NCBI GenBank assembly: GCA_021325275.1
Contig: JAJPHL010000009.1
Location: 1-64,000 of the forward strand
Direction of reading: 5' to 3'
Length of the DNA: 64,000 bases
DNA from: Terriglobia bacterium
Lineage (GTDB): Bacteria > Acidobacteriota > Terriglobia > JAJPHL01
The notes beneath the pieces were generated by a model, which was given only the letters and a program-made list of their open reading frames with translations, was not told the DNA's origin and did not search any database. The translations under genes and the position numbers were made by a program. This document shows positions 43,703-61,350 of this stretch, in pieces (the stretch's first letter is position 1; the number at the start of each line of letters is the position of its first letter).

Positions 43703-44764
43703 ATGAAATTCCGCACTGCGGTCATTCTTCTCGCCACGGTTTTTTGTTTCGCGCAAGCACCCGGCCGCGGAGGCCAAGCCGCGCCCGCTGAGCCCGGGGC
43801 TCCTGCGGCCACTCCCGCGCCGCAAGTCGGCGCAGGCGTCGGCGGTGGTCAACCGGATTTCAACAACGACGCGCTTTCGCGCCGGCTCGACGATCTCACG
43901 TGGTATTTCACCATGGGTGACATCGCCGATATCGACAACGTCGAAATTCCCGGCTTGCCGCCGCGCGTGATTCCCAACCCCACAGGACAAGGCGCGGGCA
44001 ATCCCGTGGTGTTTCATTGCTACACGTTCATTCCGAAAAAACTCGACCGCACCAAGAAGCATCCGCTGATGGTCTTCGTGCACGGCGGCGTCCACAGCAA
44101 CTTTACCCGCGATACGTCGCCGCATTTGATCCGCGAACTGGTTGAATTGGGATACACGATCATCGCGCCCGACTATCGCGGGTCGACGGGATATGGAGGC
44201 GAATTTTGGCGCGATATCGACTACGGCGGACGGGAGAACGATGACGTAATGGCCGCGCGCGACTGGGCCGTGGAGAATTTCGATTTCGTCGACCCCAAGC
44301 GCGTCGGCATCATGGGATGGAGCCACGGCGGCATGATCACGCTGATGACGATTTTCGATCACGCCGAAGGTTTCGCGGTCGCGTACGCCGGCGTGCCGGT
44401 GAGCGATCTCGTGGCGCGCATGGGATACAAGGGTCCCGGTTACCAGCAGCTTTACTCCGCGCCGTATCACTTGGGAAAAACCGCCGAGCAGAACGTGAAT
44501 GAATATCGCAAGCGGTCCCCGGTGTGGAACGCGCAAAAACTGAACACGCCCCTGCTCGTGCACACCAACACCGCCGACGAGGATGTGAACGTTCTCGAAG
44601 TGGAAGAGTTGATCCGCGCCTTCAAGGCGGAAGGCAAGAAATTCGAATACAAGATTTACGACAAAGCGCCTGGTGGGCATCACTTCAATCGTCTCGACAC
44701 GAAACTGGCGCGCGATTCACGCAGGGAAGTGTATGAATTCCTCGGGCGGTATCTAAAACCCTGA
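43703..44764 (+). CDS. Secreted prolyl-oligopeptidase-type alpha/beta hydrolase
   Basis: 353 residues with a signal peptide (1-19) and a Gly/Pro/Ala-rich linker to about 50. The hydrolase fold shows the oxyanion loop VFVHGGVHSNF, the nucleophile elbow IMGWSHGGMI with the catalytic Ser, the acid in NTADEDVNVLE and the His in APGGHHF. This matches peptidase family S9 or related esterases. There is no separate beta-propeller domain, unlike full prolyl oligopeptidases. The 30-bp inverted repeat follows 6 nt after its stop. Confidence 0.85.
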   Translation: MKFRTAVILLATVFCFAQAPGRGGQAAPAEPGAPAATPAPQVGAGVGGGQPDFNNDALSRRLDDLTWYFTMGDIADIDNVEIPGLPPRVIPNPTGQGAGNPVVFHCYTFIPKKLDRTKKHPLMVFVHGGVHSNFTRDTSPHLIRELVELGYTIIAPDYRGSTGYGGEFWRDIDYGGRENDDVMAARDWAVENFDFVDPKRVGIMGWSHGGMITLMTIFDHAEGFAVAYAGVPVSDLVARMGYKGPGYQQLYSAPYHLGKTAEQNVNEYRKRSPVWNAQKLNTPLLVHTNTADEDVNVLEVEELIRAFKAEGKKFEYKIYDKAPGGHHFNRLDTKLARDSRREVYEFLGRYLKP

Positions 44765-44770
44765 CGGTTT

Positions 44771-44849
44771 TTTCAACGCAGAGACGCAGAGGGCGCAGAG
44801 GATGAATCAATCAGGTTTTCTCTGCGCCCTCTGCGTCTCTGCGTTGAAA
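44771..44849. repeat. Perfect 30-bp inverted repeat of CGCAGAG units, terminator-like
   Basis: Bases 44771-44800 and 44820-44849 are perfect reverse complements separated by a 19-nt loop. Each arm is made of ACGCAGAG/GCGCAGAG-type short units. Such sequences are widely dispersed between genes of many bacteria. Placed right after the hydrolase stop and before the glycosyltransferase, it will form a very stable hairpin in RNA and may end transcription. Confidence 0.85.
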
Positions 44850-44876
44850 GAACCCTTAGTGTATTCTTGAGAAGCG

Positions 44877-46131: not shown

Positions 46132-47325
46132 ATGACCGGCGAATCCATCATCTATTTCAACAAAGAATGGGGTGAAAACACCACTTCCGCCGATCACGTC
46201 TTCGAACAGCTTTGTCGCCACAACAAAGTGATGTGGGTGAATTCCATCGCCATGCGCAATCCGAATCTCGGATCGGCGCACGATTGGGGACGCATCTACA
46301 AAAAGGTTCGCAAACTTCTCGGCGGATTGCGGCAAATGGGACCGAACGCGTGGCTCTATCAACCGTTTTTCATTCCGCTGCCGTTTTCGAAGCGTGCGCA
46401 AACGCTGAATCGCCGCCTGTTGCGCTGGTCGCTGCGGCGGCAGGCGAGAAAACTCGGCATGAAGAATCCGCAACTATGGACGTTTCTTCCGAGCGCCGTC
46501 TACATGATCGGCGAATTGGATGAATCGGTGGTGGTCTACTACTGTATCGACGCGTGGACGAAGTTCGTGCACCTCGACGGCGGCAGCATCGCGCCGCTGG
46601 AAGATGAGTTGATCCGCAAAGCCGACGTATGCTTCGCCTCGGCGGAAAGCATTCTTGAAAGTCTGAAAGCGCGCAACCCCAACACGTATTTGTCGCGCCA
46701 CGGCGTGGACTTCGAGGTATTCGCGCGCGCCTCCGATCCCGCGACCGTTGTGCCCGACGACATCGCGCGCTTGCCCAAGCCGGTGATCGGTTTTTTCGGC
46801 GGCCTTCGCGAACACATCGACTTTGATTTGCTCGTGGCGATCGCGCGCCGTCATCCCGAATGGTCGCTCGTGTTGTTGGGATTAGTGCAGGTGAACGTTG
46901 ACATGTTGCGCGCCCTGCCCAACGTGCACATTTTGGGATCGCGCAAGTATCAGGAACTTCCGGCGTACTGCAAAGGTTTCGACGCGAGTATTATTCCGTA
47001 CTTGCGCAACGAATTTACCGAGCACGTGAATCCCATCAAGCTGCGGCAATACTTGTGCGCGGGATTGCCGACCATCGCCACCGCGATTCCGGAGACGTTA
47101 GAATACGCGCACGTGGCATCGGTGTGCGAGACGCACGACGAATTTATCGCCGCCATCGAACATGAACTAGCAGCGGATTCGCCGGAGCGTCGTGCGGCGC
47201 GTCGCGAGACCATGCGTAGCGAGTCGTGGGAAGGAAAAGTCGCCGTTGTTTGCGAGCGAGTTATGGCGGCGAAGGAGGAGCGGCAAATCAAAAATCAAAA
47301 ATCAAAAATCAAAAGTGAGAAATAG
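46132..47325 (+). CDS. Family 4-like glycosyltransferase
   Basis: 397 residues, GT-B fold. The C-terminal half has KPVIGFFGGLREHIDFDLL, SLVLLGLVQVNVDMLRALPNVHILG and NPIKLRQYLCAGLPTIAT, the usual donor-sugar site with its Glu. The last 14 or so residues (RQIKNQKSKIKSEK) are encoded by a 7-bp tandem repeat and are not part of the fold; the native end was probably a little earlier. It starts 10 nt after the GT2 gene, so they are cotranscribed. Confidence 0.88.
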   Translation: MTGESIIYFNKEWGENTTSADHVFEQLCRHNKVMWVNSIAMRNPNLGSAHDWGRIYKKVRKLLGGLRQMGPNAWLYQPFFIPLPFSKRAQTLNRRLLRWSLRRQARKLGMKNPQLWTFLPSAVYMIGELDESVVVYYCIDAWTKFVHLDGGSIAPLEDELIRKADVCFASAESILESLKARNPNTYLSRHGVDFEVFARASDPATVVPDDIARLPKPVIGFFGGLREHIDFDLLVAIARRHPEWSLVLLGLVQVNVDMLRALPNVHILGSRKYQELPAYCKGFDASIIPYLRNEFTEHVNPIKLRQYLCAGLPTIATAIPETLEYAHVASVCETHDEFIAAIEHELAADSPERRAARRETMRSESWEGKVAVVCERVMAAKEERQIKNQKSKIKSEK

Positions 47326-47417
47326 CGCGCTGGGGTCTCGCGCGAAGGTTCGGTTGCTCGGGCCTCGTCCGTTCCTCCATTTTTGATTTTTGCCTTTTGA
47401 TTTTTGATTGTTGATTT
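47285..47417. repeat. Inverted pair of 7-bp tandem repeats (AATCAAA / TTTGATT)
   Basis: Four copies of AATCAAA run from 47286 to 47313, and about five TTTTGAT-type copies in the opposite sense run from 47380 to 47416. They can pair over about 30 bp around a 65-nt loop. The left arm lies inside the glycosyltransferase reading frame and lengthens it; the right arm touches the start of the deacetylase gene. It looks like an inserted dispersed element. Confidence 0.7.
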
Positions 47418-48047
47418 ATGTTCTTCTCAAACTGGTTCGGTCCTTCCCTAACCCGCCTCCCACCCGGCAATCGTGTAGCCTTGACCTTCGATGACGGCCC
47501 CAGCGAAACCACCCCGTACGTTTTGGATTTGCTCGCCGAGTACAACGCACGCGCGACATTTTTTCTCGTCGGCATGAACTGCCATCGCCTTCCAGACGTC
47601 GCGCGGCGAGTGATCGCGGAAGGTCACGAGATCGGCAATCACACGTGGTCCCACGCGAATTTCTATCGTTGCGCGCCATGGCAAGTGCGCGCGGAAATCG
47701 AGCGCGGCCAGCAGGCGATCGAAGACACGCTGGGGCGGCGCCCGCAGTGGTTCCGCCCGCCGTTCGGTGTGCGCTGGTTCGGCATGTTTCCGGCGCTCGA
47801 TCGTTTGGGAATGCGCTGCGCGTTATGGTCGCTCGACACCTGCGACTGGCGCGATCCCGCCGACGCGATTGTCGAGCGCGGGGCAGGCGCGCAAGCCGGC
47901 GACGTGCTTCTCCTTCACGACGGTTTTCGCACGCACGTAGGAAACAATCGCAAGGAAACGGTGGCGGCGCTGGGACGCTTGCTCGCGCAATTCCGCGATC
48001 GTGGGTTGGAAATGGTGACGCTAGCGCCCGCGGCGCCGGCCAAGTAA
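47418..48047 (+). CDS. Polysaccharide deacetylase (NodB domain)
   Basis: 209 residues, essentially one NodB domain. Motif 1 TFDDGPSETT, motif 2 HEIGNHTWSHANFYR (metal His pair), motif 3 RPPFGVRW, motif 4 DTCDWRDP and motif 5 LLLHDG are all present. The enzyme removes N- or O-acetyl groups from glycans with one metal ion. There is no signal peptide in the chosen frame, so it acts in the cytosol or on lipid-linked precursors. It follows two glycosyltransferases. Confidence 0.92.
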   Translation: MFFSNWFGPSLTRLPPGNRVALTFDDGPSETTPYVLDLLAEYNARATFFLVGMNCHRLPDVARRVIAEGHEIGNHTWSHANFYRCAPWQVRAEIERGQQAIEDTLGRRPQWFRPPFGVRWFGMFPALDRLGMRCALWSLDTCDWRDPADAIVERGAGAQAGDVLLLHDGFRTHVGNNRKETVAALGRLLAQFRDRGLEMVTLAPAAPAK

Positions 48048-48909: not shown

Positions 48910-49001
<92 letters not shown>

Positions 49002-49088
49002 ATAGACTATTTATAATCAGTAGTTTATAAAATTATCCTTGCACATGTACCAAGATTTGTACCATCATTCCGTAGGGCGAGGTTTTTG

Positions 49089-50159
49089 ATGCTTACACTT
49101 TATCGCCGCCATCGGAAGGAATGCCCATACAGCGATGACCGCTATCACCGCCGCTGTACGTGTACGGTTTGGGCGCAGGGCACCATTGAAGGAACGCCGA
49201 TCCGTGAGTCTCTGAAGACCCGTTCATGGGAACGGGCTGAGCAGATCAAGCGCGACAGGGAAGCGGGCCGGAGCGCCAAGCCAGAAACGCCGGCCGCAAT
49301 GACCATCGAAGCGGCCATCAAGCTCTTCATCGAAGACTGCGAATCGCGGAACCTCACCGACAGCCCGCTGAAGAAGCACAAACGCCTTACGCGACGGTTC
49401 GGTGATTTCCTAATGCCGCTCGGCATCGAATTCTTTCCAGGAGTGACGACCGACATCATTCGGCGCTTCCGTTCGACCTGGAAGCTGTCGCCGCGGACTG
49501 CGGCCAAGGAATTGGAACGGCTCCGTTCTTTTTTCCGCTTCTGTGTCGAAGCCGGATGGATCTCAATCAATCCCGCGAAGGCCGTGAAATCGCCGAAGTC
49601 GAAAGAGCTGCCCCGCCTGCCGTTCAGCGACGACGAAGTGGCGAAGATACTTTCGAAAACGGAAAACGACCGGGAGCTTGCCTTCGTGAGAATCCTCCGA
49701 CACACGGGACTCCGAATCGGCGACGCATCACTGCTTCAGAAATCGGCTATCTCTGAGAATCGTGTCTACCTCTACACGACGAAGGGCGGCACGCCCGTCC
49801 ATATCGTTCTACCGCCCGATCTCGTCTCGCTTCTTAATTCGCTTCCCGCTCCAGGCGGATATTTTTTTCTCTTCGGCGAATCGACAAAGATGCACACGAC
49901 GGCCGACCTCTGGCGTCGCCGCATCAAACGGATGTGCAAGGATGCGAAGGTCACACCGGATCATCCCCATCGTTTCCGGCACACACTGGCAGCCGATCTC
50001 CTCACAAAGGGTGCGAGCGTCGAAGATGTTGCCGCAATCCTTGGCAACAGCCCTGCTGTCGTGATGAAGCACTATTCCCAGTTCTGCCGTAGGAGGCAGG
50101 ACCGTCTGGATGACCTCATATCAAAGACCTGGAAGAAGACTCTCGTAAGGGTCAAGTAG
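49089..50159 (+). CDS. Tyrosine integrase at tRNA-Ser (Int1)
   Basis: 356 residues from ATG 49089; a TTG one codon upstream is possible. A Cys/His-bearing N-terminus (HRKECPYSDDRYHRRCTCTVW) resembles small metal-binding or arm-binding modules. Then come the SAM-like core-binding domain (about 75-155) and the catalytic domain: Arg in HTGLRIGDAS, Lys in TTKGG near 233, HRFRH near 294, and Tyr in KHYSQF near 328. The LGH motif reads LGNSP, a common variant. It starts 90 nt after the tRNA, as expected for an integrase at attL. Confidence 0.93.
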   Translation: MLTLYRRHRKECPYSDDRYHRRCTCTVWAQGTIEGTPIRESLKTRSWERAEQIKRDREAGRSAKPETPAAMTIEAAIKLFIEDCESRNLTDSPLKKHKRLTRRFGDFLMPLGIEFFPGVTTDIIRRFRSTWKLSPRTAAKELERLRSFFRFCVEAGWISINPAKAVKSPKSKELPRLPFSDDEVAKILSKTENDRELAFVRILRHTGLRIGDASLLQKSAISENRVYLYTTKGGTPVHIVLPPDLVSLLNSLPAPGGYFFLFGESTKMHTTADLWRRRIKRMCKDAKVTPDHPHRFRHTLAADLLTKGASVEDVAAILGNSPAVVMKHYSQFCRRRQDRLDDLISKTWKKTLVRVK

Positions 50160-50472: not shown

Positions 50473-51906
50473 ATGAAGCCCAATTGCAGAGTCGCCAAAC
50501 CATCGCTCAGGACGAGTGGATGGAAAAAATCCTTCGGGGGTCTCTCTATAGCGCCGCTGCTGCTGTCACTACTGGTTGGCATCGTTTGTCTCAGTGTCAC
50601 GGTGCGTGCAGACGTTCTCGATACCCTGAAGAGTTACGCTAAAGACCCGGCAAAAGGCTTCCTCGACGATGCCGAGACGAAGGCGAAGAACGTGATTGCC
50701 CGGGGCCAGGATGCTGCTGACGGTGCAATAACGCACGCTGGACAGGTGATCGACGTCGCCGCTCGTGACGCCATCATTGGTCTAGGCGCGCATATAAACA
50801 AGGCCATTGGAGATCTCGACCTCGGCGAGCAGAACGTGCTTGCATCGATTCTCGATTTAGAGACGAAAGCCGACCACATCCTAGCTGGTGTATACGATCT
50901 GCGAGACACTACCGCCGTTGACCTCACTAACATCCTAAGAGGTGTGGTTTTTGTGCATGCGCCGGACTTCCTGGTTCAGGCAATTAAGGGCACCGCTCTC
51001 TTGCCTCAGAAGGACGATTATCACATCACGGTTACGGCAGTTGGTTTCGGCCAAACGAGCGACTCGATGGCTGAGATAACCGCTTCACTGAACGGAAACC
51101 CGATTAAGTTAGGTGAAGTCGATCAGGTCAGCGAGGCAGGCAACGCAATTCTGTCCATTCCCAATGGAACGATTCTGCGGTTATTCGCCCCAGACTCATT
51201 GAAGTTTGCGGATCTCGCATTGAATGTCAACATAAAGCGTAAACACTGGTACTGGTTCGGTTGGAAGAGCCACCACTATCAAGTTCCTATTCGTCTCATG
51301 CTCTATCCAACCCACGTCGCTACTGTGACCGTCCATTTTACGGCACCATCATTTGGGTGGGTCTCCACAGGCGATGTATTTTCTGCAACAAAACAGACAG
51401 AGGAAAAGGATGGATGCAAGTTCTGCGATGTGTCTTGCACTTCGAAACCGACCTTTGACGTTACTGTGCCAGGAAATCACACGCCCACCGCGGTTGGAGA
51501 TGAGCGCATTACTAAGGCCGGAGTGGAGTGCATTGCGGGAGGTAGTATTTGTGCTTTCAACGTTCGATCGGGTACGGATATTTCCGCGAACGGAACCCGT
51601 GCTTCTGGCCACGTCGAAACCTGTAGTCATCCGACGGTATGGCGACTGCGTGCCAGTGTCGAGAGGTGGCAGCAGACCGGTGACCCAACAAACGATCAAA
51701 AAATTGAGGTCCTCGTCGATAGACCACAGGTGATTCCTCTGCCTGACGGCGTTTCATCGGTCACCATTGACGTGGTATCGTCAACCAAGCAGAATTATAC
51801 GTTTGTGATTCCGAGTTCTGACCCGCACGGCATCCTCAACGCGACAATGCCTCCCGGAAGCCATAGCCTGATCATATCTGCATTGCCCATTCAGCCTATC
51901 TACTAG
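50473..51906 (+). CDS. Secreted protein of unknown function (element cargo)
   Basis: 477 residues from ATG 50473, with GGAG 10 nt upstream. A long positive n-region is followed by a hydrophobic helix (LSIAPLLLSLLVGIVCLSVTV) and a probable cleavage near VRA-DV. Residues about 50-165 are amphipathic and helical (DDAETKAKNVIARGQDAADG). The rest is beta-rich with a Cys cluster (DGCKFCDVSCTS), two further Cys (VECIAGGSICAF) and several aromatic residues. No known domain is recognised. Base and codon use are less GC-rich than the chromosomal genes. It is the only clear exported cargo of the element; its last codon overlaps the convergent small gene. Confidence 0.75.
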   Translation: MKPNCRVAKPSLRTSGWKKSFGGLSIAPLLLSLLVGIVCLSVTVRADVLDTLKSYAKDPAKGFLDDAETKAKNVIARGQDAADGAITHAGQVIDVAARDAIIGLGAHINKAIGDLDLGEQNVLASILDLETKADHILAGVYDLRDTTAVDLTNILRGVVFVHAPDFLVQAIKGTALLPQKDDYHITVTAVGFGQTSDSMAEITASLNGNPIKLGEVDQVSEAGNAILSIPNGTILRLFAPDSLKFADLALNVNIKRKHWYWFGWKSHHYQVPIRLMLYPTHVATVTVHFTAPSFGWVSTGDVFSATKQTEEKDGCKFCDVSCTSKPTFDVTVPGNHTPTAVGDERITKAGVECIAGGSICAFNVRSGTDISANGTRASGHVETCSHPTVWRLRASVERWQQTGDPTNDQKIEVLVDRPQVIPLPDGVSSVTIDVVSSTKQNYTFVIPSSDPHGILNATMPPGSHSLIISALPIQPIY

Positions 51907-52130
51907 AATCTAGTGGCGACTTTGACGTACACCTCTGCGATAGCTTTCGTGCATCGCTCGTTCCAGAGGTGTGCGAGCATTGCTCGGCACACGGAAGCCC
52001 AGGCTTCTGATCCTCGGCAAAAAATCACCGCAGCCTCCAACGGACTTACACTTGCCGGGACTCCTTCCAACTCTGGAAGCTCGTTCGCGAACGCGAACGA
52101 CCTCTCACGAGCGCGTTTCTCGGCCATCAC
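51903..52130 (-). CDS. Small hypothetical protein
   Basis: 74-75 residues (starting GTG 52130 or ATG 52127). TAGGAGG lies 5-8 nt upstream, an excellent ribosome-binding site whose TAG is also the stop of a short upstream frame (52140-52175), so translation is likely coupled. The protein is helical (SPLEAAVIFCRGSEAWASVCRAML) with two Cys. The family is unknown. It ends inside the last codons of the secreted protein gene, tail to tail. Confidence 0.6.
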   Translation of the reverse strand: MMAEKRARERSFAFANELPELEGVPASVSPLEAAVIFCRGSEAWASVCRAMLAHLWNERCTKAIAEVYVKVATRF

Positions 52131-52175: not shown

Positions 52176-52435
52176 GTTGTTTCTCCTTTTCGCTCCCGAA
52201 GTCCCTCGGTCACTGCTTCGCTTGACGGCAACGACGGCCTAGCCGCGCCCGGCGCTCACCTACGTTCTGCTTTGTCGGTTCCCCCAAACGAGATTCCGCC
52301 CTGCGGGTTTTGCTCGCCATTCAGCTCGCCGGAATCTCGCCCGGTCCCCCCAACAATGCACTTCGGCTCGCTTGGGAGCGGCTCCGCTTGCTTTTCGTGC
52401 CCCGAGGGACTTCGGGAGCGAAAAGGAGAAACAAC
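52176..52435. repeat. Perfect 34-bp inverted repeat around a 192-bp spacer
   Basis: 52176-52209 and 52402-52435 are exact reverse complements. Read outward, each arm ends in AAGGAGAAACAAC directly before a start codon: ATG 52437 on the plus strand and GTG 52175 on the minus strand. Inside, CGAGATTCCG (52289-52298) and CGGAATCTCG (52330-52339) form a second inverted repeat, and CGGTTCCCCC / CGGTCCCCCC are direct repeats. It may be an invertible segment, a cruciform, or a duplicated leader. No protein-coding gene is seen in the spacer. Confidence 0.9.
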
Positions 52436-52436
52436 C

Positions 52437-52691
52437 ATGTTGTCAATCAATCGAGAACCACAACCTGAACGGACAGCACCATTCAAGGCCGTCACTCAGT
52501 TCCTTACCGTTGCGCAGGTGGCACGCCGTTGGAGCGTCAGCGAGGATCTCGTTCGCCGCCGCTACCGCAATAACAAGCACGTCCTGAAACTGGGCGCGGT
52601 CAAGCCGCGAACCCGCGGATGGGTCATGCTTCGCATCCCCGAATGGCTCGTTCTGGAAGACGAGGAAAAATTGAAGACTCGTATCCCGTGA
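52437..52691 (+). CDS. AlpA/excisionase-like helix-turn-helix protein
   Basis: 84 residues from ATG 52437, because AAGGAG lies 10 nt upstream; the frame extends 165 nt further without support and through the inverted repeat. The core FLTVAQVARRWSVSEDLVRRRYR followed by a basic wing (LGAVKPRTRGWVMLRIP) is the MerR-like fold of excisionases and AlpA regulators. Such proteins direct integrase toward excision or control it. It is the best candidate recombination directionality factor of the element. Confidence 0.8.
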   Translation: MLSINREPQPERTAPFKAVTQFLTVAQVARRWSVSEDLVRRRYRNNKHVLKLGAVKPRTRGWVMLRIPEWLVLEDEEKLKTRIP

Positions 52692-54044: not shown

Positions 54045-54073
54045 ACTATAGCGCCTAAGTGCTGTTTTGTCAA
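54045..54073 (-). promoter_or_regulatory. Strong sigma-70 promoter, minus strand
   Basis: TTGACA (54073-54068) and TATAGT (54050-54045) are exactly 17 nt apart on the minus strand. This should start transcription near 54038, about 90 nt before the 53949 start codon. Its -35 box lies at the very beginning of the divergent ATPase gene. Confidence 0.75.
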
Positions 54074-54081
54074 TAGCTTAC

Positions 54082-55770
54082 ATGGGTCCGATTTTTATAG
54101 GCAATGACGAGCACGGAATGCCGATCGAGCTTGGTGATCGTGAACTGCAAACCCATGTGCATGGCATTGGTGCATCGCGCACTGGGAAGTCAAAGCTGAT
54201 CGAATGGATCGCACGGGCCATGGTCAAAAGCCGGCAGGGATTCTGTCTCATCGATCCGCACGGATTTTTGTACGACGATTTGGTACGGTGGCTTGCCTAC
54301 GCGCAGCCCGAACGGGAGATCATCCTCTTCGAGCCAGCCTCGGCCGACCGCATCGTTGGATTCAATCCGTTTCAAGAACGGGGCAGCGGAGACCTCAGCA
54401 CCCTTGTCGATCGCAGAGTGCAAGCGACAGTAAAAGCGTGGGGCGCGACGAACACAGATCAGACACCGCGGCTCGAACGCTGGTTGCGTTGCCTGTACTG
54501 GGCGCTCATGGAGCAAGGTTACTCTCTTGATGCGGCGCGGTACTTCCTCAGTTGGCGCGAAAAAGAAATCCGGCAACATCTCGTCCGTTCCATCCAATCG
54601 GATGCTGTGCGCGGCGAATGGGAAGAACTTGGGTCTATAAAGAACGTCCAGGACTTCTGGTCTCAGATCGAGAGCACGAAGAACCGTCTCCTTTTCCGTT
54701 TCCTCGAACCGCTCCAAGTACGACGCGTGATGGGCCTCAACCGCAACAACATCGACCTGGTGGACGTAATGGAGAACGGGAAAATTCTCCTCGTGAACCT
54801 CCAGCCAAAAGATGACCGTCTCAGCGAAGAAAACGCGCGTCTGATCGGTACACTGCTCCTCAGCCAGATTTGGGAGACCGCCCAGAAACGCCAGCAAGGT
54901 CCCGGTGGTCGCGCGCCCTCGGCATTTCCGGTCATCATTGATGAGTTCCAACGTTTCCTAACGCCGGACGTACCCGAGATGCTGGACGAGGCTGCGAAGT
55001 ACGGAATCCATCTGTTTCTGTTCCATCAACACCTTTCACAACTCAAGAAACTCGACGAACAGGCATACGGCGCCGTGATGACGAACGCACGTATCAAGGC
55101 GGTGTTCGGCGGTCTCTCCCGCGAAGATGCTCGCACCATGGCCGAAGAGATGTTTCCAGGCCAGGTCGATCTCAAGCGCACGAAGTTCGTGATTGAGCAG
55201 ACGAAATTTTGGCCAGTGTACGCGCGTGATACGGTCTACACGCGCGGCTCAAGTCAAGGTATGGGAACCACAAGCTCAAGTGGCAGAACGGATAGTCTCG
55301 CATGGAATCCCGACCTGGGAACCTGGGTACCTTCGACTGGGGAAAGCTCGTTACAGGGCAACTCTGAAGCGGGGCAAGAACAGGAAGGGGAGGCCAACAT
55401 TCCGATTGTGCTGCACAAACCCTTCAAGGAAGTCTCATCCATAACGTCGTACTCGCTCGATGAGATGCTCTGGGAGCTTTCAGACCGGCTAATGGAACAA
55501 TACCAACGACATTACATGATCAGAATCCCTGGCCGGCCCACACGGGCTGCTGTAACGCCCTTCGTAGTATCGCGGGCCGTTGAGCCTAAGGTTCTCGCGG
55601 CATACAAGGATCACATGTCTGAGCAGTTTTTACACGCGAACGAGGTGGACGCGGCGCTGCGAGAAGTTCACAACCAGCTCGCGATCGCGACGACGGGGCA
55701 GCCCCTTCCGAGCCACCGTAAGGAGATGGTAGAATTTTCGGAACCGCCTCCCGACTTCCGGGAAAAATAG
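54082..55770 (+). CDS. Soluble VirD4/HerA-like ATPase 1
   Basis: 562 residues from ATG 54082 (a TTG at 54067 is possible; no ribosome-binding site is visible for either). Walker A GASRTGKSKL near 36, the LIDPHG block, Walker B VIIDEFQRF near 295, and sensor-like LFLFHQHLSQL. This is the type IV coupling/HerA-FtsK superfamily that moves DNA to a conjugation channel or packages it. There is no N-terminal membrane anchor, unlike VirD4. A flexible Gly/Ser/Thr stretch lies near 400-450. It is followed 15 nt later by the Replic_Relax gene, so they are likely one operon. Confidence 0.85.
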   Translation: MGPIFIGNDEHGMPIELGDRELQTHVHGIGASRTGKSKLIEWIARAMVKSRQGFCLIDPHGFLYDDLVRWLAYAQPEREIILFEPASADRIVGFNPFQERGSGDLSTLVDRRVQATVKAWGATNTDQTPRLERWLRCLYWALMEQGYSLDAARYFLSWREKEIRQHLVRSIQSDAVRGEWEELGSIKNVQDFWSQIESTKNRLLFRFLEPLQVRRVMGLNRNNIDLVDVMENGKILLVNLQPKDDRLSEENARLIGTLLLSQIWETAQKRQQGPGGRAPSAFPVIIDEFQRFLTPDVPEMLDEAAKYGIHLFLFHQHLSQLKKLDEQAYGAVMTNARIKAVFGGLSREDARTMAEEMFPGQVDLKRTKFVIEQTKFWPVYARDTVYTRGSSQGMGTTSSSGRTDSLAWNPDLGTWVPSTGESSLQGNSEAGQEQEGEANIPIVLHKPFKEVSSITSYSLDEMLWELSDRLMEQYQRHYMIRIPGRPTRAAVTPFVVSRAVEPKVLAAYKDHMSEQFLHANEVDAALREVHNQLAIATTGQPLPSHRKEMVEFSEPPPDFREK

Positions 55771-55785
55771 TTTTCTTAACTCACC

Positions 55786-56520
55786 ATGCCGGCGACAACT
55801 GGATTTCAACTTGTCGAAAGCGACCTTGCGCTGTTGCAGCACGTCCACGAATTGCGTCTCGCCACGATTGAGCACCTAGCCGCGCTCTCTGGCAGGTCGT
55901 ACAAGCAAACGCAGAAGCGACTCGCAAAGCTCGAAGAGCGGCGGTACCTGGCGTGCCTTGCCCGACGGCCGCAAAAGCATGTCTACGCGATCGGAAGTGC
56001 GGGAATTCCCGTGCTCATCGAGCACGGCTATGCGCCGCAGGAGATCGCCGGCCAGCGGCTCCGGCAGACGGAACTAAAGGAACTAGGAATCCGGCATGCG
56101 GTTTTCGTCGCGGACATCCACGTGAAAGTCTTGCAACTCACGAATACGCAAGCGTATACGCTTCCCAGATGGACCGAAGGTCCGTCGCTCTGGGATCGCG
56201 TAACGAGCAGTAGCAATGTGATTATCCCGATCCGTCCGGACGCGCTCTTTACGATCGCATCACCGACAGGGGAGAGGGCACATTTTTTCCTCGAAGCAGA
56301 CCGCGGCACGATGGCACACAGCCGGATGCGGGAGAAGATCACCGGATACGCTGCGTACTTCCATCAACGACTACACTCGAAAAAGTACGAGGGGATGAAA
56401 GTTTTCCGCGTCGTGACGATCACGGAAACACTTGGCCGAGCGGAAGGACTCCGATCCGAGTTTCGTTCGATGATGCCGGCGCTCGGATCACTCCTCGCGA
56501 ATCGAAATCGGATTCTTTGA
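55786..56520 (+). CDS. Replic_Relax (replication-relaxation) family protein
   Basis: 244 residues from ATG 55786. The N-terminal winged helix (LALLQHVHELRLATIEHLAAL; RSYKQTQKRLAKLEERRYLAC) and the nuclease-like C-terminal part (DIHVKVLQL, PDALFTIA, HFFLEADRGTMAHSRMREK) match PF13814-type proteins of plasmids and integrative elements. They are thought to bind near origins of replication or transfer. It lies directly downstream of ATPase 1, which supports a joint DNA-processing role. Confidence 0.85.
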   Translation: MPATTGFQLVESDLALLQHVHELRLATIEHLAALSGRSYKQTQKRLAKLEERRYLACLARRPQKHVYAIGSAGIPVLIEHGYAPQEIAGQRLRQTELKELGIRHAVFVADIHVKVLQLTNTQAYTLPRWTEGPSLWDRVTSSSNVIIPIRPDALFTIASPTGERAHFFLEADRGTMAHSRMREKITGYAAYFHQRLHSKKYEGMKVFRVVTITETLGRAEGLRSEFRSMMPALGSLLANRNRIL

Positions 56521-56787
56521 CCAGGACCTCTCTATTTCTTTCGTGAAACTCGTGAGTTCCGTTTGTGGTTCGGTATCGCCCAACGTGTCGAGAGCCGTCG
56601 AGGCGAGATCACGCGCAACGTCTCTCTCGTACCGTGAAGTTTGCGTGTGATTGGACGGGCAGCTCCCCTGCGGGGGAGATTCGCCCTGCGTTTTGACACC
56701 GGCTGCTAGGGACAGAACAGTCCCAAAAGGCGCGGCATAGGAAAAGGCCCCGCAAAGCCAAAAGGCGATGCGGGGCTTTCCTGTTTC
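56521..56787. other. Gap between Replic_Relax and small genes
   Basis: It contains a CTCCCC/GGGGAG hairpin (around 56664-56679) and the terminator at 56742-56783. On the minus strand one open frame around 56640-56480 has a protein-like composition (SRYERDVARDLASTALDTLG) but no start codon and overlaps the end of the Replic_Relax gene, so I do not call it. Confidence 0.4.
56742..56783. terminator. Bidirectional terminator
   Basis: GCCCCGCA (56747-56754) pairs with TGCGGGGC (56769-56776), with an inner GCC/GGC stem and an AAAA loop. On the minus strand it begins 5 nt after the stop at 56788 of a broken small gene and is followed by CCTTTTCC; on the plus strand CTTTCC follows. Confidence 0.7.
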
Positions 56788-56934
56788 TACTCAACCTCCT
56801 CTCCGTCTTCGTCTACCTCCACTATCTTGACCACCTTGTCGATCGGGCCTTCGTGCCAATCAACACTTGGAGAGTAGAGCGCTTCATGCTGGGCTTCTTT
56901 CTATCTCGTTGACATATACACGGTATCGTTTCAA
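56788..56934 (-). pseudogene. Frameshifted small gene coupled to ORF A
   Basis: TTG 56934 overlaps the stop of ORF A as TTGA and opens MKRYRVYVNEIERSPA, ending at 56884. One frame away, from 56900 to the stop at 56788, the sequence reads HEALYSPSVDW then EGPIDKVVKIVEVDEDGEEVE, an acidic protein-like tail with no start codon of its own. The terminator follows 5 nt later. One missing or extra base near 56890 would join both into a protein of about 50 residues. Confidence 0.45.
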
Positions 56935-57116
56935 GCGGTTGGTTGCTTGGTTTCCCCCTTTAACTTCTTCCATTCTTCGGCAAGGGCATCGAGATGCAGA
57001 TTGATCCTGATATTCCGCGCACGGCTCAGATTTTTCCTGTCGCTCTGCTCTTCGTGCAGACGACATTGGAGAACTTCGATTTCCTCAATGCGCTTACGGA
57101 TCTGTTTTTCTGTCAT
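56931..57116 (-). CDS. ORF A: small coiled-coil protein
   Basis: 61 residues from ATG 57116: MTEKQIRKRIEEIEVLQCRL followed by more charged helix and WKKLKGETKQPTA. It has the heptad look of a coiled coil. No Shine-Dalgarno is seen; the 24 nt before the ATG are A/C-rich, and the nested palindrome (57148-57333) precedes that. Its stop overlaps the next start as TTGA. Function unknown. Confidence 0.55.
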   Translation of the reverse strand: MTEKQIRKRIEEIEVLQCRLHEEQSDRKNLSRARNIRINLHLDALAEEWKKLKGETKQPTA

Positions 57117-57147
57117 CGGGGCGGGTTGATGTGGTTAGTTTCGACCT

Positions 57148-57333
57148 TTGCGCCCGTGTTCGCTTCACGGCGGCTTCGTCTACGGGGAGGGTTCCCAGCG
57201 CCGTCAAGGTGGATCGACAAAAAAATGCCGCTCGCGCTCTCTTGGGCGCGGCGGCGAAGAGTCGAAGTACCTTGACGGCGCAGGGACGGGTTCCCCGTAA
57301 ACTTGCCGATCCGTGAAGCGAACACGGGCGCAA
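57148..57333 (-). repeat. Nested palindrome S1 (possible structured leader)
   Basis: Five nested pairings share one axis. The outer one is 23 bp and perfect (57148-57170 with 57311-57333). Then TACGGGGA/TCCCCGTA (57181-57188 with 57292-57299), a 13-bp perfect pair (57198-57210 with 57269-57281), TCGAC/GTCGA (57214-57218 with 57261-57265), and an inner stem GCCGC-t-CGCGC with GCGCGGCGGC (57227-57237 with 57246-57255). On the minus strand it precedes ORF A. Its ends resemble those of S2. Confidence 0.85.
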
Positions 57334-57448
57334 GACGCCACGAAGAACAGAATCGAACAGTCATCATCTTCCTTTCGAGATCGTGACACCTCCCGAAGGG
57401 TGGGCGGGGAACGTAGCTCCTCCCCTTGCCCAAAAAGGAAATCCGAGA

Positions 57449-57473
57449 AGGGGCGGGCACTTTGCCCGCCCCT
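57449..57473 (-). terminator. GC-rich hairpin after ORF B
   Basis: A 10-bp perfect stem, AGGGGCGGGC with GCCCGCCCCT, with a 5-nt loop, lies 10 nt after the ORF B stop (57483). Downstream on the minus strand come TTCTCGG and then a CCTTTTTGG run, so T's are not immediate. Confidence 0.6.
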
Positions 57474-57482
57474 CAGTCACGG

Positions 57483-57713
57483 CTACTGCCGCAACCGCTC
57501 GCGCGCCGGCGCACGGAATTGTCTCGGATGTTCGCGTCGTTCTCCCGCATCGCGCGGGGCAGGCGACTGGCCACTAGCCTTCAAACCGTTGCGATACGAT
57601 TCGAGCACGCGCTCGCGAATGGCGCGCTTCGTTTCCGCGTAACCGATTTTCTCATCTGTGAGGTCGCGGAAGAGCGTGTCGAGCCAGCGGTCTACGTCTT
57701 GGAGGTATCCCAT
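57483..57713 (-). CDS. ORF B: small hypothetical protein
   Basis: 76 residues from ATG 57713: MGYLQDVDRWLDTLFRDL, then DEKIGYAETKRAIRERVLES. The first 48 residues look like a helical domain; the last 28 are Arg/Pro-rich and could be read-through of decayed sequence. No Shine-Dalgarno: 23 nt of A/C-rich leader follow palindrome S2. A hairpin follows the stop. Function unknown; same layout as ORF A. Confidence 0.55.
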   Translation of the reverse strand: MGYLQDVDRWLDTLFRDLTDEKIGYAETKRAIRERVLESYRNGLKASGQSPAPRDAGERREHPRQFRAPARERLRQ

Positions 57714-57738
57714 AATAAATTTGTTTTTTTTGTTTGTC

Positions 57739-57870
57739 GACCTTTCCGCCGTTTCATTTCACGGCGCTTTTTTTCGCCGCGCAGAGCCGGAAGGCGGGTT
57801 ACTGCTTCTGAGTAACCCACCGATGGCCTGCGCGTTCCTCTGTGCCGTGAAATGAAACGCAGGGAAGGTC
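57739..57870 (-). repeat. Nested palindrome S2 (possible structured leader)
   Basis: GACCTTTCC (57739-57747) pairs with GGGAAGGTC (57862-57870) including one G-T pair, a perfect 16-bp pair follows (57750-57765 with 57844-57859), then CGCGCAG/CTGCGCG (57778-57784 with 57828-57834) and GGGTTACT/AGTAACCC (57796-57803 with 57811-57818). On the minus strand it precedes ORF B. Its outer ends share TCGACCTTT and TTCACGGCG with S1, in the same orientation. Confidence 0.85.
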
Positions 57871-58578: not shown

Positions 58579-59928
58579 TTATCTGATCGCGGATCGTTGG
58601 TTGTGGGGCATCCTAGCGCGAAAGTTTTTTACCTGCGGGAGGGTGTCACCGAAAAAATCTCGCCGCAACGCTTCCTCGACCGCAGCGCGCGGCTTCGCGT
58701 AGCGGCTGCGACTGACGCCGATCACAGAGTGCTGCCATGCGTGTTTCGGATGTCGGGTAAACGGAGGATGCGCTTTGACTCGGTGGAACGCCGGAGCGCC
58801 AGGGGCGCCGAGGAGGGTCCGAACGTACATCGTGTAGTTAGGAAGTTCCTGGAGGTACGCGGCGGGTATCGTCATTCCGAATTCGGCGCTCAGACGCGTC
58901 GCGTCGCTGCCGCTGACCCGAAAGGCGACGACGGTTGCACAATTCGTGAAGACCGCTGCGGCCGCTTCGCGCGGCAACGACTCGATTCCCTGCGTAGCGA
59001 GTACCAGCACGAGGCCGAACTTTCGACTCTCCGCAAGGATGGATTCAAAGTCGCCGATGAAACTCTGCGCTTCCTCGCAATAGAGCACGTGGGGAACGCG
59101 GGAAGCCTCCGGGATGTCCTGCCGAGAAAGCGCCGCGAGTTTCTCTTTCAAAAGAATCAGCGACCCGAGAAGACGGGAGTTGTCATCGCCAATGGAACCT
59201 TTCGCGAGGTCACAGAAAAATATCTTGCGGCCGTCCATCATCCAGCGGAAGTTGAAACTCGAACGCGTCTGACCGATAATCGCCCGCATAAGGGGATCGG
59301 TCAGGAAAGCGCGACACTTGTTGAGCACTGGTGAGATTGCTTCTTCGCGAAACGAACTAGTCCAGCGGTCGAACGTGTTCGAGAAAAAATCGAGAACGGC
59401 AGGATTCGAGACGTGCTGGAGCAAGACGGCTCGATACGCCTCGTCGGTGAGAAGTCGGGGAAGCGCGAGAAGCGATATGGGAATCGGTTGCTCGATGAGT
59501 ACGTAGAGCGCGTTTCGCAAAATGTCCTCGAGTCGCGGCCCCCACGAGTCTGCCCAGAGTGTGTGAAAGATGCTGACGACGTGGGAAACGACGAGACCGC
59601 GTTGCTCGACGCGCGGACAGTCGAGCACGTTAAGGGCGAGTGCGTGGTTATAGTCTTTCGGGTCGAAAAAAATCACATCGTTTTTTCTCGAACGCGGGAC
59701 GTGATTGGCTAGGAGTTCTTCACACAGCCCTCCGTGTGGATCCACAACAGTGACACCTGTTCCTACATCGAGGTCGGTCGCCGCCATGTTTGTGAGCAAT
59801 GTGCTCTTGCCGGTTCCGGTCGCACCGAAGAGCGCCATGTGCTTGCGGCGCGCGTCAACCGGAATAGAGAGGTCCGGCGTCCCGAAGAGGTTATCTTCAT
59901 GGGTACCGATCGGGGCATTGTCGAGCAT
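58579..59928 (-). CDS. Soluble VirD4/HerA-like ATPase 2
   Basis: 449 residues from ATG 59928. Walker A GATGTGKSTL near 36, VVDPHGG near 62, Walker B in HVLYCEEAQSF near 270, and an arginine/sensor region VLATQGIESLP. It belongs to the same TraG/VirD4-HerA superfamily as ATPase 1 but is clearly different in sequence and length, and also lacks a membrane anchor. The upstream small gene (59940-60161) is 11 nt away on the same strand, so they form an operon. Confidence 0.85.
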   Translation of the reverse strand: MLDNAPIGTHEDNLFGTPDLSIPVDARRKHMALFGATGTGKSTLLTNMAATDLDVGTGVTVVDPHGGLCEELLANHVPRSRKNDVIFFDPKDYNHALALNVLDCPRVEQRGLVVSHVVSIFHTLWADSWGPRLEDILRNALYVLIEQPIPISLLALPRLLTDEAYRAVLLQHVSNPAVLDFFSNTFDRWTSSFREEAISPVLNKCRAFLTDPLMRAIIGQTRSSFNFRWMMDGRKIFFCDLAKGSIGDDNSRLLGSLILLKEKLAALSRQDIPEASRVPHVLYCEEAQSFIGDFESILAESRKFGLVLVLATQGIESLPREAAAAVFTNCATVVAFRVSGSDATRLSAEFGMTIPAAYLQELPNYTMYVRTLLGAPGAPAFHRVKAHPPFTRHPKHAWQHSVIGVSRSRYAKPRAAVEEALRRDFFGDTLPQVKNFRARMPHNQRSAIR

Positions 59929-60264: not shown

Positions 60265-60379
60265 TCAACCCAGGAACGGGGAGGACCCTGAAAAACTGCC
60301 CATCGAGCAAGACGAGTTGGTCGAGCCCGCCGACTTCCTGGAGCCGGAGGATCTGAGCGTCGGAACATTGGAACCATGA
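60257..60379 (+). CDS. 40-residue acidic protein coupled to Int2
   Basis: ATG 60257 to TGA 60379, with AAAGGA 5 nt upstream. The protein is very acidic (MIRQPRNGEDPEKL, then EQDELVEPADFLEPEDLSV). Its stop overlaps the Int2 start as ATGA (60376-60379), a common sign of translational coupling. It may be a small regulator or partner of the recombinase; no family known. Confidence 0.65.
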   Translation: MIRQPRNGEDPEKLPIEQDELVEPADFLEPEDLSVGTLEP

Positions 60380-61350
60380 GGAACGATATGGTTTCAATTG
60401 GGCCACGGGATCTTGGAAGAGCCGGATTCGACAATCTGCCCGCCGCCGTCGCGCGCGCCGGCGACCGCGCCGCTTGGCGCTTCGTTGAATTCTTCACGGC
60501 CACGATCCGGAACCGCAACACGCGGGCCGCATACGCGCAAGCGATCAAGCAGTTCTTCGCCTGGTGCGAGAAGCACCGCGTCAACACACTCGCGCAAATC
60601 AACCCAGTGGTGGTCGCGGCATACATTGAACAGCACCAAAGCATGGCGCCCACTGTAAAGCAACATCTCGCGGCAATTCGAATGCTTTTCGACTGGCTCG
60701 TGACCGGCCAGATTGTACCTGTGAATCCCGCGGCGTCCGTGCGCGGCCCGAAGCACGTCGTCCGGCGCGGCAAGACGCCCGTGCTGAAAGCCGATCAAGC
60801 TCGGCAACTTCTCGATTCCACCAACACCGATACGATCGTTGGCCTCCGCGATCGCGCGATCATCGGATTGATGTGCTACACGTTCGCGCGCGTCTCCGCG
60901 ATGACGAACATGAGCATCGAGGATTATTATCAAAGCGGCAAGCGCTGGTGGGTTCGCCTTCACGAAAAGGGCGGAAAGCGTCACGAAGTACCTGCACACC
61001 ACAACGCCGAGGCCTATCTCGATGCCTATCTCGACACTGCCGGCATTCGGGAGGAAAGGAAATCTCCATTATTCCGGAGCGTAGACAAGCGGCGAGCAAT
61101 CACGGCGAACCCGATGGCGCGAACGGACATTTTGCGCATGGTAAAGCGGCGGGCACTCGAAGCTGGACTCCCCTCTTCAACCTGCTGCCACACGTTCCGT
61201 GCTACTGGAATTACCGCCTATCTCGAGAATGGCGGCACTATCGAGAACGCGCAAGCGATCGCCGCGCATGAGTCACCACGCACCACGAAGCTCTACGACC
61301 GCACCGGCGATGAAATCACATTGGACGAAGTGGAACGGATCGCTATCTAG
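60376..61350 (+). CDS. Complete XerC/D-like tyrosine recombinase (Int2)
   Basis: 324 residues from ATG 60376 (overlapping the small gene; a second ATG at 60388 is possible). Residues about 30-125 form a SAM-like core-binding domain (TIRNRNTRAAYAQAIKQFFAW). The catalytic set is complete: Arg in YTFARVSAMTN near 178, Lys in HEKGGKRHEVP, HTFRATG near 275, His in AAHESP near 298, Tyr in TKLYDR. It is GC-richer than its neighbours. It may cut the element's other end, resolve multimers, or belong to a second mobile unit. Confidence 0.92.
   Translation: MRNDMVSIGPRDLGRAGFDNLPAAVARAGDRAAWRFVEFFTATIRNRNTRAAYAQAIKQFFAWCEKHRVNTLAQINPVVVAAYIEQHQSMAPTVKQHLAAIRMLFDWLVTGQIVPVNPAASVRGPKHVVRRGKTPVLKADQARQLLDSTNTDTIVGLRDRAIIGLMCYTFARVSAMTNMSIEDYYQSGKRWWVRLHEKGGKRHEVPAHHNAEAYLDAYLDTAGIREERKSPLFRSVDKRRAITANPMARTDILRMVKRRALEAGLPSSTCCHTFRATGITAYLENGGTIENAQAIAAHESPRTTKLYDRTGDEITLDEVERIAI

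Follow-up and report, generated by a model that had tools for sequence, protein, structure and literature searches.

Two nested hairpins, S1 and S2, each precede a small gene on the minus strand of the window (the whole 64,000-nt stretch of DNA analysed, which opens contig C9 of a soil acidobacterium), and as judged from sequence comparison they are a conserved, duplicated structured unit that is rare among sequenced genomes. By analogy with plasmid F, we consider it close to an even bet (probability about 0.48) that S1 and S2 are duplicated single-strand promoter or primer sites of the Frpo/ssi type, situated in the leading region of a MOBC-type integrative mobilizable element.

S1 (57141-57336, minus strand, ~196 nt), upstream of ORF A, is built of four to five coaxial stems, with 23-bp outer arms that are 100% paired (57148-57170/57311-57333) and inner arms at 57193-57218/57261-57286. 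S2 (57737-57870, minus strand, ~134 nt), upstream of ORF B, has 27-nt outer arms that are 89% paired (57739-57765/57844-57870); its outer arm is homologous to that of S1 and its interior differs. On the minus strand both hairpins terminate in AAAGGTCGA, from which an A/C-rich spacer leads to the ATG (24 nt for ORF A, 23 nt for ORF B), and the outer arms of S1 and S2 are distinguished by two compensatory changes (TTCGCTTCACGG/CCGTGAAGCGAA versus TTCATTTCACGG/CCGTGAAATGAA). The 6.86-Mb genome contains TCGACCTTTNCGCC, the end common to both hairpins, at S1 and at S2 and nowhere else. RNA folding gave -141 kcal/mol for S1 (z = -13.5) and -79 kcal/mol for S2 (z = -8.6), values that no shuffled sequence matched, and single-stranded DNA energies gave z-scores of -10.7 and -6.3, so that both sequences fold far better than shuffles whichever strand or energy set (RNA or DNA) is used. 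Nesting depth was not discriminating as a genome-wide statistic and GC-corrected fold energy was used instead; by this measure of foldback S1 ranked first among 2,891 windows of 240 nt, drawn from ~320 kb of host genome. Arm mapping and fold scores confirm the nested inverted repeats described in an earlier note on this DNA, which had also correctly reported matching outer sequences with differing interiors and, on the minus strand, conserved ends at a conserved distance from the start codon.

S1 and S2 lie within a mobile element. The 27-bp 3' end of a tRNA-Ser(GGA) gene identified by ARAGORN (48910-48999, plus strand), designated attL (48974-49000, plus strand), has an exact second copy beyond the window at contig C9:79662-79688, and because of these exact repeats we place an inserted element of ~30.7 kb at ~48974-79688; GC content falls from ~0.60 to 0.55 at the insertion. 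A tyrosine integrase gene (49086-50159, plus strand, Pfam PF00589) adjoins the tRNA gene. The element further encodes a VirD4/TraG-type coupling ATPase (54067-55770, plus strand, PF12696/PF02534), a MOBC-type Replic_Relax relaxase (55786-56520, plus strand; PF13814 at 84.3 bits against a curated cut-off of 25.3), a second coupling-type ATPase that is TrwB/HerA-like (58579-59928, minus strand) and a second tyrosine recombinase (60376-61350, plus strand) that is 75-83% identical in related elements. It also carries a DUF932 gene (contig C9:76928-77812) with relatives in related elements, and genes for a DnaG-like primase (CHC2 and Toprim domains), ParA and a YhcG nuclease; no mating-pair-formation genes were found in the subset of its ORFs that was scanned. 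The relaxase gene is 0.6-1.3 kb away from S1 and S2, and both small genes are read in its direction. The att repeats, integrases, PF13814 relaxase and coupling ATPases argue for the Frpo/ssi-type reading, as does the direction of ORF A and ORF B, which point at the relaxase gene as the leading genes of F point at oriT. Of the roles listed in the earlier note, a transcription or replication origin is the one we favour, because the units adjoin the relaxase gene of a mobile element.

The PF13814 family is designated MobC (MOBC) in CONJscan, and streptococcal integrative mobilizable elements combine an integrase and a PF13814 relaxase with their own VirD4-type coupling protein (PMC5357655). The element in the window has the same three components. 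Unlike its streptococcal counterparts, it has two coupling-type ATPases, a primase and ParA, and it further differs from them in its tyrosine integrases, tRNA-Ser site, acidobacterial host and hairpin-led small genes. Beyond the element, partial copies of the tRNA-Ser 3' end at contig C9:96132 and 97518 suggest that more elements, or their remnants, have accumulated there in tandem. At a locus in another family of the same class (L044, 5879-5968 and 12283-13305), three features cluster: a tRNA-Ser(GGA) gene, a gene of PF13814 type and an integrase that shares 56% identity with the second recombinase of the window. The clustering suggests the same insertion site.

The second ATPase gene served as the query for related elements: a search of 84,980 genomes with an alignment of its 449-aa product found them in Bryobacterales and other Acidobacteria MAGs, and a search of genome contigs with the 567-aa ATPase gave no match. 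The closest relative, L067, from a Bryobacterales MAG, shares 72% identity in the ATPase and 71% in the relaxase. Directly before its homolog of ORF B, L067 carries a hairpin that has AAAGGTCGA at its base, 22 nt from the ATG, and whose four to five stems pair off one-to-one with those of S1. In an S1/L067 alignment of 53 pairs, hand-fitted to the structure, we counted 7 double compensatory changes, 0 one-sided changes and ~10 broken pairs, compared to 0-1 double changes in slid controls, and a covariance model built from S1 and L067 recovered the held-out S2 (E = 2.9e-6). The L067 homolog, the double compensatory changes and the recovery of S2 together identify a conserved structured unit, and this conservation (7 double versus 0 one-sided changes, and S2 recovered) argues for the Frpo/ssi-type reading, tempered by the hand-fitting of the alignment. 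They also bear out the core of the earlier description, in which a structured leader with compensating arms and a small gene form a unit that is repeated, and they add a third homolog. The interior of the L067 hairpin resembles that of S1 although the gene behind it corresponds to ORF B, which suggests that hairpins have been exchanged between genes as cassettes and makes the hairpin a module that can precede different genes. This modularity also argues for the Frpo/ssi-type reading.

The unit is rare. The model from S1 and L067 (R1) placed it in two genomes only when 257 genomes of the order of L067 and 399 of the class were searched, weak partial matches aside and with the stricter filters used for these large R1 searches (~650 related genomes), and it was absent from viral contigs. 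This search speaks against a wide occurrence in Acidobacteria, the group in which the earlier note had proposed to look, and the restriction to two genomes counts against the Frpo/ssi-type reading.

In L067, too, the orientation relative to the relaxase gene is the same, with the small gene running towards it. ORF B (57483-57713, minus strand) encodes a 76-aa two-helix protein that is 64% identical to its L067 counterpart across the full alignment, and the two genes differ at 10, 6 and 29 first, second and third codon positions, respectively, indicating that ORF B is a real gene under protein-level selection; no homolog beyond these two genomes appeared among the 257 genomes of the order and 399 of the class. 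ORF A (56931-57116, minus strand) encodes 61 aa predicted to form one long helix (pLDDT 92), and its composition is coding-like. A homolog of ORF A was not found.

Conjugative elements enter the recipient as single strands, and in F the Frpo1 and Frpo2 sequences fold on the entering strand and drive transcription of the leading genes at an early stage (PMC9849209, PMC11541004). We folded the F leading region (L081) with the same tools as a positive control, and found that Frpo2 (before ssb) and Frpo1 are long nested foldbacks, 87% identical, that a third palindrome ends 36 nt upstream of an anti-restriction gene, and that a DUF932 gene lies in the leading region near oriT. Like Frpo1 and Frpo2 of F and ssi of ColIb-P9, S1 and S2 are long nested imperfect stems in homologous copies, and like the F sites they precede genes, those of F running towards oriT and ORF A and ORF B towards the relaxase gene. 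The F control, with two homologous foldbacks ahead of genes, and the DUF932 gene common to the element and the F leading region argue for the Frpo/ssi-type reading. S1 and S2 are nevertheless shorter than the Frpo sequences (~196 and ~134 nt versus ~280-390 nt), the relaxase of the element is of MOBC type whereas that of F is MOBF, and S1 and S2 have no recognisable -10 box. They also lack sequence similarity to the F leading region and to plasmids or phages, which counts against the Frpo/ssi-type reading.

Promoter motifs were ambiguous. The best -10/-35 match in S1 to the sigma70 consensus was 7/12, as it was in Frpo1 and Frpo2, and we dropped this consensus as a discriminator because even these validated sites reach only 7/12. 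The lack of a convincing -10 counts against Frpo/ssi-type sites, although for the same reason the weak -10 in S1 is weak counterevidence. On the minus strand, the apical hairpin of S1 is followed by T7, 11 nt and TTGACG, resembling the spacing in Frpo2, where an A/T-rich apex is followed after 11 nt by AGGACA; the L067 apex has an interrupted T run with TTGACC at 12 nt, and S2 has only a weak version. The expected number of matches as good as that of S1 is 0.02 in 200 nt of the element. The resemblance to Frpo2 speaks for the Frpo/ssi-type reading but carries little weight because it was noticed after the fact, and TTGAC, common to S1 and L067, is absent from S2, which counts against that reading. 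The template-strand fold was more stable in L067 and in 4/4 F controls, and S1 and S2 were neutral, so that template-strand folding is not clearly favoured in either, a further point against it; in the S1/L067 alignment, ~6 pairs read as A-C mismatches in the coding strand and as G-T in the template, versus 2 G-U, counts too small to assign a strand preference.

If S1 and S2 are sites of this type, the plus strand of the window is predicted to be the transferred strand, and by analogy with F oriT would lie in the intergenic stretch at 56521-56930, which has the relaxase gene on one side and ORF A and ORF B on the other. On the entering strand, each palindrome would fold in the recipient into a duplex-like hairpin, at which host RNA polymerase would start and transcribe ORF A or ORF B before synthesis of the complementary strand; the transcript might also prime that strand. 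Once the DNA was made double-stranded, the hairpin would be gone and the promoter silent. We infer that the acting molecule is the DNA strand and not an mRNA, and, by the analogy with F, the promoter or primer activity, the strand of transfer and the position of oriT.

The main rival is an mRNA leader, in which the minus-strand transcript would fold into the long hairpin and control the two small genes, acting either by attenuation or as an insulator that blocks readthrough from the host chromosome and shields their own short transcripts. It owes this standing to the terminator-like apices of S1 and L067, where a T run comes after the apical hairpin as read in the coding direction (the one in L067 was flagged as a putative terminator at 2796-2815), and to the conserved, A/C-rich 22-24 nt between hairpin base and ATG; the held-out S2 also gave its higher score on the coding strand (28.3 bits, compared with 22.6 on the other). 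However, S2 lacks an apical terminator, the sequence ahead of the hairpins shows no promoter, and the hairpin stops short of the start region, leaving the start codon unburied. The best Rfam covariance matches of S1 and S2 fell far below the gathering score, arguing against this leader and against any known RNA class, a possibility left by the earlier note. We judge an mRNA leader unlikely.

Improbable, in our estimation, is that S1 and S2 are ssi or replication-origin sites for priming only, for example by the element's DnaG-like primase, and take no part in transcription of ORF A and ORF B. That primase is conserved in the element and its relatives together with a second palindrome family, and single-strand conversion could well be served by two copies on the same strand, but the repeated exact placement 22-24 nt before three small-gene starts is needless for priming, and most primase-bearing relatives lack sites of the S1/S2 type. 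Least likely of all are selfish or relic palindromes, that is, palindromic mini-elements inserted one within another and kept palindromic by hairpin-templated mutation and not by selection. Hairpin-templated correction can yield paired changes without function, and inverted-repeat families are plentiful in the host genome. Against such an origin, the genome contains no copies of S1 or S2 beyond these two, the gene-proximal base is the conserved part and its distance from the start codon is conserved as well, and L067 retains a homologous unit next to the same gene. The lack of further copies led us to reject a dispersed mini-element (MITE or REP), and it leaves the mobile miniature element suggested in the earlier note unsupported. 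An integron attC site was also rejected. Like attC, S1 and S2 are imperfect nested palindromes with conserved ends, variable interiors and small orphan genes adjacent; unlike attC, which follows its gene, they precede genes, their ends lack RYYYAAC/GTTRRRY by inspection, and no integron integrase is annotated.

Other long palindromes occur in the element and the host. H1 (52176-52435), unnoticed in the earlier note, has 34-bp perfect outer arms and a nested interior, and sits between divergent small ORFs at 51903-52127 (minus strand) and 52438-52691 (plus strand, excisionase-like); its arms contain AAGGAG, and the palindrome lies 2 nt ahead of the excisionase-like ATG and ~50 nt ahead of the minus-strand ORF. 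H4, a fourth long palindrome that the element carries a little beyond the window (contig C9:69209-69435, within the family region C9:69205-69440, L018:9205-9440), belongs to a family with one member in each of four related elements (also L099:5880-6076, L066:4705-4945 and L068:17196-17430). Members carry GCGATAGC motifs, and their four-sequence alignment has 45 predicted pairs, 14 of them with double changes, making the family a candidate oriT, replication origin or initiation site. H1 and the H4 family indicate that elements of this family repeatedly carry long conserved foldbacks. Compared with the chromosome, the element is only modestly enriched in foldbacks. Host foldbacks formed by the short dispersed repeats AACGCAGAGACGCAGAG, TTGTATCAGGGCACGGCTTCAGCCGTGCCG and AAAATCAAAAATC (window 44755-44865 and 47285-47425, and chromosome loci L021-L064) are unrelated to S1 and S2; multicopy host repeats are among the other strong foldbacks of the chromosome.

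The well-documented single-strand promoters are those of enterobacterial plasmids, and elsewhere candidates have been proposed mostly by similarity or promoter consensus. It is possible, though doubtful, that S1 and S2 represent a foldback lineage of acidobacterial MOBC elements that arose independently of Frpo and provides the genes of tiny establishment or anti-defence proteins with single-strand promoters in the form of interchangeable cassettes. If this were true, single-strand promoters would have arisen more than once and would exist outside MOBF and other well-studied plasmids, and ORF A and ORF B would be candidate establishment or anti-defence proteins. Such sites could be sought by a rule that dispenses with sequence similarity, namely homologous nested foldbacks before small genes facing a relaxase gene. 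A sequence-unrelated case with conserved structure in Acidobacteriota would mean that expressing genes early, from the strand that enters the cell, is a strategy of mobile elements in general.
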